DNA of 64,000 nucleotides from Microbacterium oleivorans. GTDB taxonomy: Bacteria; Actinomycetota; Actinomycetes; Actinomycetales; Microbacteriaceae. Shown here piece after piece: positions 2 through 49,968 of this stretch (its first letter is position 1; each line of letters begins with the position of its first letter). The stretch spans positions 248,001 to 312,000 of the forward strand of contig NZ_MAYO01000003.1 of NCBI RefSeq assembly GCF_001691565.1. The letters run 5' to 3'. The notes under the pieces were generated by a model. It did not search any database. It was not told the DNA's origin and saw nothing but the letters and a program-made list of their open reading frames with translations. A program made the translations under genes and the position numbers.

Positions 2-268
2 GAGCCCGCGGAGCCGCCCGCGCCGCAGCCGGACGCCGTCCTGCCCGCCGTGCCCGTCGTGAAGGACGAGCCCGTCGCGCTTCAGCCCCGTGATGACGAT
101 CGACCGGATGCCGCGGCCGCGGCGGTGGCTGCCGAGCCCGACACCGGCACCCGCGGCATCCCGATCACACCCGCGGACATCGACCTGGCGGACATCGACG
201 GCCTCGGTGCCGCGGACCGGCTGGGTCTTGGCCGCCGCGACGACGACGAAGTGGGGCCGACAGCATGA
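2..268 (+). CDS. ftsE: FtsE C-terminal tail (partial, start outside window)
   Basis: Open frame entering from the left edge and ending at the start of ftsX, so it should be the 3' end of ftsE, the ATPase of the FtsEX divisome ABC complex. Only a tail is visible, about 88 residues rich in Pro, Ala and Asp, with no ATPase motif. The family core is about 220-230 residues, so this looks like a lineage-specific C-terminal extension. Its TGA overlaps the ATG of ftsX (ATGA, 265-268), which implies translational coupling. The identity is inferred from position, not from motifs. Confidence 0.7.
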   Translation, partial: EPAEPPAPQPDAVLPAVPVVKDEPVALQPRDDDRPDAAAAAVAAEPDTGTRGIPITPADIDLADIDGLGAADRLGLGRRDDDEVGPTA

Positions 269-1244: not shown

Positions 1245-1721
1245 ATGCCCAGGGAACGCGGAGAGCAGGTCATCGCGACCAACCGTCGCGCGCGCCACGA
1301 GTACGCCATCGAGAAGACGTACGAGGCGGGCCTCGTGCTCACCGGCACCGAGGTCAAGTCGCTCCGGCAGGGTCGCGCGAATCTCAGTGACGGCTACGCG
1401 TTCATCGACGGCGGGCAGGCGTGGCTCGATGCGGTGCACATCCCCGAGTACTCGCAGGGTCACTGGACCAATCACGCGACCAAGCGCACCCGCAAGCTGC
1501 TCCTGCACAAGGACGAGATCATCAAGCTCTCCCATGCCATTTCCGCCGGCGGCTACACGCTCGTCCCGTTGAAGCTCTACTTCTCGGACGGTCGGGCCAA
1601 GGTCGAGATCGCCGTGGCCAAGGGCAAGCGAGAGTTCGAGAAGCGTCAGACGATCCGCGAGCGCGAGGACAAGCGCGAAGCCGAGCGCGCGATGCGCGGT
1701 CGGAACCGGCTCGGCGACTGA
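1245..1721 (+). CDS. smpB: SsrA-binding protein SmpB
   Basis: 158 residues, the usual SmpB length. The protein binds tmRNA and delivers it to stalled ribosomes. The N-terminal third has the SmpB hallmark [17 protein letters not shown] and GTEVKSLR, and the C-terminus is the basic [18 protein letters not shown] tail that enters the mRNA channel. A GAGGAG site precedes the ATG. The tmRNA gene itself lies 2.2 kb downstream on the same strand, so both partners of trans-translation are in one neighbourhood. Confidence 0.97.
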
Positions 1722-1743
1722 GCCCCGGCTCGGCGACTGAGCC

Positions 1744-1956
1744 TCAGCCGCGTCGACGCGGTTCGGGCGGCGGGGGTACGGCCTTGGCCGCGATGATCGC
1801 GCCGCGCGGGATGCGTTCGATCCCGCGCTTGCCGTCGACGACCACCACGTCCGTCTCGGCGCTCACCAGCTCACCGAGCGCATCCGTCGCTCGACCGTCG
1901 GGGAGCAGGTAACGCACGACGACGCGCGTTCCCGGGGCAGGGAGCGAGGTCACCAC
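1744..1956 (-). CDS. Short SH3-like barrel protein, function unknown
   Basis: 70 residues. The sequence GTRVVVRYLLPDGRATDALGEL followed by a KRGIERIPRGAIIAAKAVPP end resembles the N-terminal SH3-like domain found on some actinobacterial Rv0428c-type GNAT acetyltransferases, but no acetyltransferase domain follows. It may be a stand-alone domain that acts as a partner or nucleic-acid or protein binder; this is inference. Two adjacent GTG codons (1956, 1953) are possible starts. The second overlaps the stop of the upstream SDR gene as GTGA, so the two genes are translationally coupled. Confidence 0.75.
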   Translation of the reverse strand: MVTSLPAPGTRVVVRYLLPDGRATDALGELVSAETDVVVVDGKRGIERIPRGAIIAAKAVPPPPEPRRRG

Positions 1957-46570: not shown

Positions 46571-46674
46571 GGCATCCTCGTTCGTTCTGTCGATGGGGGA
46601 GTGTCGCCACTGCCGGGATCGTCTCAGACACCTCGAAAGGTACTCTTAGGGTCGCCCCCGCACGAAAGGCCCCC

Positions 46675-47769
46675 ATGGAGCTCCCCCTCTGGTTCGAGGT
46701 CGGCTCGCTCGTCGGTCTGACGCTCATCCTCGTCGCCGACCTGCTGCTGATCATCAAGCGCCCGCACGTTCCATCGACGAAGGAATCGACTCTCTGGGTC
46801 GTCTTCTACGTCGGGCTCGCGTTGCTCTTCGCGCTGCTGATGCTGGTCGTCACGAACGGCGAGTACGCGGGTCAGTTCGTGGCCGGCTGGCTCACCGAGT
46901 ACAGCCTGTCCATCGACAACCTGTTCGTCTTCGTCTTGATCATGAGTCAGTTCTCGGTGCCCCGCGCGGCGCAGCAGAAGGTGCTCATGGTCGGCATCAT
47001 CATCGCCCTGATCCTCCGCGGCATCTTCATCCTTCTCGGCGCCGCCATCATCGAGCAGTTCAGCTGGGTCTTCTACCTCTTCGGTGCTTTCCTCATCTAC
47101 ACCGCCTGGAAGCAGGCCTTCGACGGTGACGACGACGAGGACGAGGAGAAGAAGGAGAGTTTCCTCGTCCGGCTCCTGCGACGCCGGATGAAGGTCAGCG
47201 AGGAGTACGACGGTGCGAAGGTGCGCACCGTCATCGACGGCAAGAAGATCTTCACACCGATGATCATCGTGTTCGCGGCTCTCGGCATGACCGACCTCTT
47301 GTTCGCGATCGACTCGATCCCGGCGATCTTCGGCATCACGCAGAGCGCCTTCATCGTCTTCACCGCGAACATCTTCGCGCTCATGGGTCTCCGCCAGCTG
47401 TACTTCCTCCTCGGCGGGCTGCTGGACCGTCTGAAGTACCTGCACTTCGGGATCGCGTTCATCCTCGCCTTCATCGGCGTGAAGCTCGTCCTGCACGCGA
47501 TGCACGAGAACGAGCTCCCGTTCATCAACGGCGGCGAGCACGTCGAGTGGGCACCCGAGATCTCGACGTGGGTGTCACTGGGCGTGATCGTCGGCTCGAT
47601 GGCGGTCGCGACGATCGCCAGCCTGGTGGCCGCGCGCCGGGAGGGATTGCGGGAGCCGGTACCGGCGACGGGACCGACGCCGGTACGTCATGCGGAGGAC
47701 GTCGCCGAGGAACAGGGCACGCCTCGCACCGTCGACCCGCACCCGTCGGACGGGGAAGCGCCTCGTTGA
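46675..47769 (+). CDS. TerC-family membrane protein
   Basis: 364 residues from ATG 46675 with GAAAGG upstream. About nine membrane segments are visible. Acidic membrane motifs SLSIDNLFVFVLI and TDLLFAIDSIPAIFG are the TerC hallmarks, and an acidic loop (GDDDEDEEKKE) lies between. Family members such as Alx and MeeF export Mn2+, while others are linked to tellurite resistance. The last 45 residues are a polar tail. A TACTCT element lies at about 46641. No manganese riboswitch is evident in the 104-bp gap. Confidence 0.9.
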   Translation: MELPLWFEVGSLVGLTLILVADLLLIIKRPHVPSTKESTLWVVFYVGLALLFALLMLVVTNGEYAGQFVAGWLTEYSLSIDNLFVFVLIMSQFSVPRAAQQKVLMVGIIIALILRGIFILLGAAIIEQFSWVFYLFGAFLIYTAWKQAFDGDDDEDEEKKESFLVRLLRRRMKVSEEYDGAKVRTVIDGKKIFTPMIIVFAALGMTDLLFAIDSIPAIFGITQSAFIVFTANIFALMGLRQLYFLLGGLLDRLKYLHFGIAFILAFIGVKLVLHAMHENELPFINGGEHVEWAPEISTWVSLGVIVGSMAVATIASLVAARREGLREPVPATGPTPVRHAEDVAEEQGTPRTVDPHPSDGEAPR

Positions 47770-47813
47770 GACCACGGCGGGTCGCCCTCGCGCTGGCGTC
47801 GCCGCCCCGGTGG

Positions 47814-47819
47814 TAGTCT
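47814..47819 (+). promoter_or_regulatory. -10 element for leuC leader transcript
   Basis: TAGTCT, 6 nt before the GTG of the leader peptide. The spacing predicts that transcription begins at or beside that GTG. Confidence 0.55.
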
Positions 47820-47825
47820 GACGCC

Positions 47826-47873
47826 GTGCGGACCGCTCGACTCCTTATCGGCCGCGACGAGACCTCCTTCTGA
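47826..47873 (+). CDS. Putative leucine-rich leader peptide of leuCD
   Basis: 15 residues, M R T A R L L I G R D E T S F, from a GTG just behind a -10 element, with no ribosome-binding site. Leu-Leu-Ile codons (CTC CTT ATC) stand together at positions 6-8. The 3' part of the ORF overlaps the left arm of a hairpin upstream of leuC. The arrangement matches ribosome-mediated attenuation, in which stalling at leucine codons alters the downstream RNA fold. It is too short to call from coding statistics alone. Confidence 0.5.
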   Translation: MRTARLLIGRDETSF

Positions 47874-47890
47874 GCCCCCTCTCGTCGCGG
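47852..47890 (+). promoter_or_regulatory. Attenuator-like hairpin upstream of leuC
   Basis: A perfect 10-bp stem, CCGCGACGAG (47852-47861) with CTCGTCGCGG (47881-47890) and a 19-nt loop. The left arm lies inside the leader-peptide ORF, just after its Leu/Ile codons. There is no T-run, so it may act by Rho or by masking ribosome access rather than as an intrinsic terminator. Confidence 0.5.
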
Positions 47891-47927
47891 AGGCTGTCGC
47901 GGGCGCCATCCGACATCAGGAGACATC

Positions 47928-49370
47928 ATGAGCACGATTCCCGACCGTCCCCGGACCCTCGCCGAGAAGGTGTGGGACGACCACCTCGTCGTGAAGGGTG
48001 AGGACGGCAGCCCCGACCTCATCTACATCGACCTCCACCTCGTGCACGAGGTGACGAGTCCGCAGGCCTTCGACGGCCTCCGCGCTGAGGGGCGGCCGGT
48101 CCGCCGTCTCGACCTCACGATCGCGACGGAGGACCACAACACGCCGACGCTCGAGATCGACAAGCCGATCGCCGACCTCACGAGCCGCACCCAGATCGAG
48201 ACCCTTCGGCGCAACGCCGAGGAGTTCGGCGTCCGCCTGCACTCGCTGGGCGACAAGGAGCAGGGCATCGTCCACGTCGTGGGACCGCAGCTGGGTCTGA
48301 CGATGCCGGGCATCACGGTCGTCTGCGGCGACTCGCACACCTCCACCCACGGCGCGTTCGGCGCGATGGCGTTCGGTATCGGGACGAGCGAGGTCGAGCA
48401 CGTCCTCGCGACGCAGACCCTGCCCCTCAAGCCCTTCAAGACGATGGCGATCACCGTCGAGGGCACACTGAAGCCCGGCGTGAGCGCGAAAGACATCATC
48501 CTGGCGATCATCGCCAAGATCGGCGCCAACGGCGGGCAGGGTTACGTGCTCGAGTTCCGCGGCTCCGCCATCCGCTCCCTGTCGATGGAGGGGCGCATGA
48601 CGATCTGCAACATGTCGATCGAGGCGGGTGCCCGAGCCGGCATGATCGCGCCGGACGAGACGACGTTCGCCTACGTCAAGGACAAGCCGCACGCCCCCCG
48701 GGGAGCCGATTGGGACGAAGCAGTCGCCTACTGGCGGACGCTGCCCTCCGACGAGGGGGCCGTCTACGACGCCGAGGTGTTCCTCGACGCCGACGAGCTC
48801 GAGCCTTTCGTCACGTGGGGCACGAATCCCGGCCAAGGCGTCTCGCTGAGCGGCGTCATCCCGGACCCTGCGCAGATGACCGATCCCAACGAACGTGCAG
48901 CGGCCGAGCGGGCGCTCGAGTACATGGACCTCGCGCCGGGCACGGCGTTGAAGGACGTGGCGGTGGATGCCGTCTTCATGGGCTCGTGCACGAACAGCCG
49001 CATCGAGGACCTCCGTCAGTTCGCGTCGATCGTGCAGGGCCGGGCGAAGGCCCCGGGCGTTCGGGTGATGGTGGTCCCGGGCTCCGCCCGGGTGCGCCTC
49101 GAGGCCGAGGCCGAAGGGCTCGACAAGGTCTTCACCGACTTCGGAGCGGAGTGGCGCTTCGCCGGTTGTTCAATGTGCCTCGGAATGAACCCCGACCAGC
49201 TCGCCCCGGGCGAGCGGTGCGCCTCGACCAGCAACCGTAACTTCGAGGGCCGCCAAGGAAAGGGCGGTCGTACCCACCTCGTGTCACCGCTGGTGGCTGC
49301 CGCGACGGCCGTCCTCGGTCGCCTCGCGAGCCCCAGCGATCTCGATGCCCTGACCCTGACGGAGGCCTGA
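47928..49370 (+). CDS. leuC: 3-isopropylmalate dehydratase, large subunit
   Basis: 480 residues, aconitase family. [21 protein letters not shown], then the Fe-S ligands in [13 protein letters not shown] and [14 protein letters not shown], followed by [22 protein letters not shown]. It isomerises 2- to 3-isopropylmalate. The ATG follows CAGGAGACATC. leuD starts one base after its stop. Confidence 0.97.
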
Positions 49371-49371
49371 C

Positions 49372-49968
49372 ATGGAGAAGTTCACCCGCCACACCGGCGT
49401 CGGCGTGCCCCTGAAGCGCTCGGCGGTCGACACGGACCAGATCATCCCCGCCGTCTACCTCAAGCGCGTCACGAAGACGGGGTTCGAGGATGCGCTCTTC
49501 GCGAACTGGCGCCAGGACCCCGGATTCGTCCTCAACCAGGATGCTTACCGCGATGGGTCCGTCCTCGTCGCCGGCCCGGATTTCGGGACGGGGTCGAGTC
49601 GTGAGCACGCCGTCTGGGCTCTTCGCGACTACGGATTCCGTGTCGTCCTCAGCACGAAGTTCGCCGACATCTTCCGTGGCAACTCCGGCAAGCAGGGCCT
49701 CGTGACCGGGGTCGTCACCGAGGAGGTGCTGGAGGCCATCTGGGCGGCTCTCGAGGCCGACCCGGGCCGCGACATCACCGTGGACCTCGAGACACGCACG
49801 GTGGCGGTCGGCGACCTCCAGGCCTCGTTCGACATCGACGATTACACTAGGTGGCGGCTTCTCGAAGGGCTCGACGACATCGGGCTCACGCTGCGCAGCG
49901 AAGAACAGATCGCGCAGTTCGAGGCGCGCCGCGAGGCGTGGCGGCCGCGGACGCTCCCCGTCCGCTGA
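49372..49968 (+). CDS. leuD: 3-isopropylmalate dehydratase, small subunit
   Basis: 198 residues. The start [21 protein letters not shown] and the [17 protein letters not shown] swivel-domain motif are typical of LeuD. It forms the active enzyme with LeuC. With leuB and ilvE elsewhere in the window, only leuA of the leucine branch is missing here. Confidence 0.96.

Follow-up and report, generated by a model that had tools for sequence, protein, structure and literature searches.

Upstream region of leuCD in Microbacterium oleivorans

Does the short leucine-containing reading frame in front of leuCD in Microbacterium oleivorans belong to a genuine regulatory leader, and at which step of gene expression would such a leader act? 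The locus was analyzed within a window of 64,000 nt (NZ_MAYO01000003.1, positions 248,001-312,000, forward strand), and all coordinates are positions in this window. The original prediction placed a leaderless leucine leader peptide and a hairpin in front of leuCD and read them as ribosome-mediated attenuation, with control on leuCD rather than on leuA. The region comprises the following features:

47811..47819, + strand: extended -10 promoter element TGGTAGTCT, from the sequence; TG-N-TANNNT also precedes 83 of 90 placed leaders of relatives
47826..47873, + strand: leader ORF VRTARLLIGRDETSF, GTG start, TGA stop, presumed leaderless; a single frame in all placed leaders
47841..47849, + strand: putative control codons CTC CTT ATC (Leu-Leu-Ile), from sequence, CTT bias and pairing test
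47841-47845, + strand: CUCCU, presumed anti-Shine-Dalgarno strand, complementary to AGGAG at 47918..47922
47852..47862, + strand: hairpin 5' arm, within the leader ORF, from sequence and alignment of relatives
47874..47877, + strand: putative pseudoknot strand 1, GCCC, in the hairpin loop, from covariation in relatives
47880..47890, + strand: hairpin 3' arm, from sequence and alignment of relatives
47901..47904, + strand: putative pseudoknot strand 2, GGGC, from covariation in relatives
47918..47922, + strand: leuC Shine-Dalgarno sequence AGGAG, complementary to 47841-47845
47928..49370, + strand: leuC, 3-isopropylmalate dehydratase large subunit (TIGR00170, NCBIfam, above cut-off), ATG start codon at 47928
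49372..49968, + strand: leuD, 3-isopropylmalate dehydratase small subunit (TIGR00171, NCBIfam, above cut-off)

The hexamer TAGTCT (47814-47819), the GTG at 47826 located 6 nt further on, the ORF of 15 codons ending with TGA (47871-47873) and the adjacent CTC CTT ATC codons were all found as predicted; the complete leader reads GTG CGG ACC GCT CGA CTC CTT ATC GGC CGC GAC GAG ACC TCC TTC, followed by TGA. A TG at 47811-47812 extends the -10 element. The predicted hairpin with its left arm inside the ORF was likewise confirmed: the arms 47852-47861 and 47881-47890 are fully complementary, and an additional A-U pair (47862 with 47880) extends the stem from 10 to 11 bp. The absence of a T-run also held, as a search of 47700-48000 gave no terminator-like site. 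Directly upstream of the leader lies a gene for a membrane protein of the TerC/Alx family (46633-47769, TIGR03718), near which Rfam indicated no riboswitch.

Taken by itself, the M. oleivorans copy is weak, with a Leu-Leu-Ile run, a pseudoknot of 4 bp and a base stem between Leu codons and Shine-Dalgarno sequence of 5 bp (-7.0 kcal/mol versus a family mean of -11.8). Upstream of the extended -10 element no recognizable -35 is present, and a sigma-70 scan, which requires a -35, found no promoter for the leader. The fold energy of the leader RNA is ordinary (z -0.55; 54 of 200 shuffled sequences fold equally well or better), as would be expected from an ORF and a hairpin that arose by chance in GC-rich DNA. 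Because of the ordinary fold energy and the negative promoter scan, the case for a real element rests on conservation, and a chance origin is contradicted, and rendered extremely improbable, by the finding of the element in 97 of 150 family leuC regions and by a homolog at leuA. No Rfam 15 family matched at the gathering score anywhere in the window, and permissive Rfam searches with the leuC and leuA leaders returned merely unrelated low scores.

Homologous elements upstream of leuA and leuB

A DNA search of the M. oleivorans genome with the leuC leader revealed a second site with 81% identity over 53 bases. It is located upstream of leuA, the gene for 2-isopropylmalate synthase, and contains the leader MRFCGLLLRRRDESSI and the same hairpin. 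A covariance model made solely from leuC elements detects the leuA leaders of M. oleivorans and its relatives; in the M. oleivorans genome only two hits are credible, those at leuA (E 4e-13) and leuC (E 4e-10). A third hit (E 0.0056) was rejected as false since it overlaps a long ORF which by eye resembles a sensor kinase, and so was an extra hit in another genome (G021, E 1e-3) which overlaps an ORF that looks SDR-like by eye. Within the family, leuA was present in 57 of 60 genomes searched, and the element preceded leuA in 30/30 cases among the 30 best-matching leuA loci. The element thus stands before leuCD as well as before leuA of the same genome, and attenuation of leuCD instead of leuA, the arrangement that had been predicted, was rejected.

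Forty further model hits, chosen by hand, included 36 in front of leuA-type genes (one gene twice), two in front of leuB and two weak false ones. The leuB cases (3-isopropylmalate dehydrogenase, NF002898 above cut-off; L269 in G331, 1720-1818, minus strand, and L281 in G156, 42-138, plus strand) belong to genomes of families other than the Microbacteriaceae and place the element at a third leucine gene. Several genomes (L271-L279, L283) possess two leuA-type genes, the second being approximately 50-58% identical to the query; each has an element of its own.

Conservation upstream of leuC in the Microbacteriaceae

leuC was present in 145 of 150 Microbacteriaceae genomes searched, and the set of upstream regions comprised 150 sequences, five of them second copies. 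The covariance model, built from 79 non-redundant leuC elements, detected the element in 97 of the 150 regions (>=52 bits), the 79 training sequences matching by construction. With one genome per genus, the element precedes leuC in 54 of 82 Microbacteriaceae genera. An independent pattern search located it in 95 of the 150 regions; four regions were found by the model only (L044, L085, L134, L137) and two by the pattern only (L035, L071), the latter being left out of the 97. On the evidence of sequence comparison, the element before leuC is a real, conserved leucine-leader RNA at an operon that is new for it.

In 90 of the 95 pattern-found elements, an ATG or GTG with a TANNNT box 6-7 nt upstream is located in the expected stretch, against a background of 21 boxes for 1764 ATG/GTG elsewhere in the same leuC regions. 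All 90 starts share a single frame relative to the hairpin. A TG stands ahead of the box in 83 of the 90, and only two have an SD-like motif in the space separating box and start. Given the box 6-7 nt before the start, the TG before the box and the rarity of SD-like motifs, the ORFs before leuC look leaderless. Frame, Leu codons and stem are thus kept in relatives, the stem with compensatory changes, and the predicted coupling of a leaderless-looking leucine leader ORF to an RNA structure before leuCD has stood the comparison suggested with it.

A few of the regions deviate. In L035 (G017), hairpin arms similar to those of the element occur upstream of leuC without a start codon or a Leu run, and they probably represent a decayed copy. 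In four regions lacking the element (L010 in G128, L011 in G059, L045 in G117 and L105 in G099), a TANNNT box is located 6 nt before the likely leuC start, as if leuC itself had turned leaderless after loss of the leader.

Codon bias and RNA pairing

An ORF was found in 92 of the 95 leaders (three were dropped), and pairing tests were performed on 89 of the 92, three being without a placed gene start. Codon counts covered 87 of these 89 leuC leaders and 29 of 30 leuA leaders. The codon CTT accounts for 172 of 339 Leu codons in the leuC leaders and 55 of 118 in the leuA leaders, versus 25 of 1095 (~2%) in 30 leuC genes. The resulting runs resemble CUCCUU, the complement of Shine-Dalgarno sequences of the AAGGAG type.

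Pairing between the Leu run and the Shine-Dalgarno sequence, the base stem, is supported by duplex energies. In the leuC set (n = 89) the true partners gave -11.84 versus -10.68 (sd 0.23) for swapped partners, and the loop with its downstream pseudoknot strand gave -8.95 versus -7.92 (sd 0.19). In a scan of 64 sub-window pairs over 80 of the 89 sequences (the rest have a distance to leuC outside 35-64 nt), the base stem and the pseudoknot had the most extreme z-scores, also among the 55 sequences left after thinning; the base-stem z went from -6.5 to -3.7 and that of the pseudoknot from -5.1 to -5.4. In the leuA set (n = 30), the base stem gave -13.05 for true versus -12.10 (sd 0.39) for swapped partners, with some swaps lower, and the pseudoknot -7.31 versus -7.01 (sd 0.23); these effects are small and not decisive. 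The swap controls, like the shuffle controls described below, leave shared ancestry in place.

The hairpin is 99.6% paired in the alignment of the 79 leuC elements, and two of its pairs show compensated changes. The covariation score of 0.151 exceeded that of 500/500 shuffles (0.095, sd 0.007) and of all slides (maximum 0.097); 5 pairs with changes on both sides and 12 pair types are within the usual range, since 93/500 and 188/500 shuffles reach these numbers. The pseudoknot is 81.5% paired, each pair being broken in 10 to 23 of the 79 sequences in the alignment register used. Column counts undercount this pairing owing to a mixed register in the MAFFT alignment, and the duplex energies were therefore used alongside.

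Eight of the 10 hairpin pairs are invariant across the 79 sequences. Such an almost fixed arm sequence would suit an RNA element bound by a protein, for instance a helicase-domain protein of the ML1624 type, with the leader peptide in a secondary role, which is the idea preferred by the authors who described the related element before leuA (Seliverstov et al. 2005, PMC1262725). The conserved xRDE portion of the peptide is encoded by the same arm, however, and a role of leader translation in the process is indicated by the single frame, the start at -10 distance and the bias in Leu codons among relatives, so that we regard recognition by a protein as improbable.

Relation to known leader systems

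The LEU element was described before actinobacterial leuA in 2005; its mechanism was left open, with protein binding preferred, and it was also named within one transposase gene. According to the text description, it consists of a leader ORF with a Leu run, a pseudoknot, a base stem between the Leu codons and the Shine-Dalgarno sequence of the gene, and an alternative hairpin on the base stem (PMC1262725). The copy before leuC shares the upstream ORF with a Leu run (in M. oleivorans two Leu and an Ile only), the base stem, which is supported across the leuC set and amounts to 5 bp in M. oleivorans, a pseudoknot between the base-stem strands, likened on the basis of the 2005 wording, and homology to the leuA elements. 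It differs in position, as the 2005 copies precede leuA and the passages available from that paper name neither leuC nor leuCD. Since its authors used the name LEU for the transposase-gene copy as well, a position before leuA was not counted as defining. A second difference concerns the mode of action: in contrast to the protein binding preferred then, the frame, the codon bias and the covariation observed here favor translation of the leader.

Leaderless leaders of this kind have precedents. In Streptomyces lividans, leuL1 at leuA is a Leu-rich leader of 15 residues which is leaderless by RNA-seq and has no typical terminator; in the part of the report available, the leaders of that organism are listed at leuA and leuS, not at leuC (PMC8079986). 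The ilvBNC leader of Corynebacterium contains codons for branched-chain amino acids, and its start codon coincides with or adjoins the transcript start, but it has its own terminator and antiterminator and acts on transcription (PMC11857589, PMC10272879), whereas no terminator is found at leuCD. A classical transcription attenuator differs in the same respect, because the leuCD leader lacks an intrinsic terminator with a U-run (0 found). At the level of proteins, the IclR-type regulators NdgR, LtbR and AreB are reported to regulate the same operon, leuCD, in other actinobacteria (PMC4340878, PMC8222616); unlike the leader they bind DNA, and they have no orthologue-level match in 85 Microbacteriaceae genomes. 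Among the titles, abstract openings and text passages covered by the literature search, no leuC or leuCD leader was reported for actinobacteria, and Lopatovskaya 2010 could contain leuC cases.

With a second LEU copy at a different operon, many more sequences become available for an element whose mechanism was open in 2005, and the covariance model permits annotation of the leader across the class, the LEU element being without a family match in Rfam 15.

Proposed mechanism of leuCD control

The leader of leuCD is, in our estimation, rather probably a second copy of the LEU element known from leuA that acts as a leaderless translational attenuator. Transcription would start at or adjoining the leader GTG, so that the leader would be translated without a Shine-Dalgarno sequence. 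The stop codon lies 25 nt past the last Leu codon in M. oleivorans. With leucine plentiful, the ribosome would reach this stop in the hairpin loop and depart; the freed run of Leu codons could then pair with the leuC Shine-Dalgarno sequence while hairpin and pseudoknot fold in between, leading to poor translation of leuC. When charged leucyl-tRNA is scarce, the ribosome would stall at the Leu codons, mask the anti-Shine-Dalgarno strand and melt the hairpin, and leuC translation would be switched on. Judged from the layout, the leader probably switches in this manner; the position of the transcript start, the response to leucine, translation as the controlled step and the direction of control are all read from the arrangement of the sequence.

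The Leu codons, if this is true, both read the leucine supply and block the Shine-Dalgarno sequence. Two functions in one codon run would account for the CUU bias, and also for the behavior of Leu-codon mutants of Streptomyces coelicolor leuA, which reportedly did not fit classical attenuation (Craster 1999, as cited in PMC1262725).

Transcription attenuation offers a different reading, in which translation of the leader sets the stop of RNA polymerase before leuC, probably through Rho, and hairpin and pseudoknot serve in pausing or as anti-Rho structures. Control of transcription by a leader ORF is established for ilvBNC of C. glutamicum (PMC11857589), and Rho has been suggested for cys leaders devoid of a terminator (PMC1262725). 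The terminator-dependent form was rejected because no terminator-like site was found, and the conserved pairing partner is the Shine-Dalgarno region of leuC, a partner not required by a terminator model; we therefore consider transcription attenuation unlikely. Of the original prediction, the leader ORF and its RNA structure are supported; with no terminator found, and with a Leu run predicted to pair with the leuC Shine-Dalgarno region, control of translation initiation fits better than attenuation of transcription.

Distribution across the class and the NdgR-type regulator

Across the class, 272 of 296 genomes (14 of them Microbacteriaceae) gave a model match (E 0.01 or better); as two weak hits were false, a few of these 272 may be false at this cut-off. 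At E 0.001, 81 of 85 Microbacteriaceae genomes had a match, and 54 of these had at least two. Upstream of leuC, by contrast, the element was found in 0/20 regions from outside the family (8 order-level and 12 class-level genomes). In 19 of these 20 regions a divergent IclR-type gene stands beside leuC, versus 0 of the 150 family regions (within ~450 bases). With the IclR-type protein of G151 as a query, 71 of the 78 other genomes in a class sample gave matches with E 1.5e-60 or better; the 85 Microbacteriaceae genomes gave no orthologue-level match, and four weak matches of 80 to 101 bits were the only ones there. NCBIfam assigned to this protein related IclR models alone, all below cut-off; we call it NdgR/LtbR/AreB-like on account of its place beside leuCD and of the description, in PMC4340878, that NdgR and its orthologues adjoin leuCD and regulate it.

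A set of 80 named leuC loci gave the same picture. Eight of them contain the element, each with a Leu run: five from Microbacterium and one each from Cryobacterium, Glaciibacter and Terrimesophilobacter. The last two genera were confirmed as Microbacteriaceae; Microbacterium and Cryobacterium are likewise members of this family. Over leuC residues 4-124, the M. oleivorans protein is 95% identical to that of M. testaceum, in keeping with a genome in or close to Microbacterium. The NdgR-type gene adjoins leuC in 63 of the 80 loci and never co-occurs with the element; among the loci from outside the Microbacteriaceae, the element is found in 0/68 and the NdgR-type gene in 63/68. Neither was found in four more family loci (one uncultured, Salinibacterium and two Agrococcus) and in L376, L380, L383, L384 and L397, L384 offering just 26 bases of upstream sequence. 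As the 28 of 82 Microbacteriaceae genera without a leuC element are also without NdgR, neither element nor regulator is indispensable.

The patchy occurrence within the family bears on whether the M. oleivorans copy still responds to leucine. It might be an inherited leader in decay, serving mainly as promoter and 5' UTR: its run is Leu-Leu-Ile rather than three or four Leu, its base stem is weak, the element is missing before leuC in the 28 genera, and the arms in G017 (L035) have outlived start codon and Leu run. On the other hand, the copy keeps the arms, the frame, the pseudoknot and the complementarity to the Shine-Dalgarno sequence, and the element with its Leu run occurs in eight named relatives, of which five are Microbacterium, so that loss of the leucine response in M. 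oleivorans appears improbable.

The leuC element in the Microbacteriaceae occupies the place of the divergent NdgR/LtbR-type gene of their relatives. From this distribution, a regulatory swap can be proposed, which we hold to be about as likely to be right as wrong: an ancestor of the Microbacteriaceae would have lost the divergent NdgR/LtbR gene and put leuCD under a copy of the leaderless attenuator of leuA, with the Leu codons as both sensor and anti-Shine-Dalgarno strand. The copying from leuA to leuCD, the link between loss of the regulator and gain of the element, and the order of these events are suggested by the distribution. If true, leuCD would be an operon at which RNA control takes over the position of a DNA-binding regulator. 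Outside the family (L249-L268 except L260), the stretch separating leuC from the divergent IclR gene contains a conserved imperfect palindrome of about TTGTCCAT...GATATTGCCGTCTCA...TGAGACGCAA, perhaps the operator and promoter belonging to the NdgR-type regulator.
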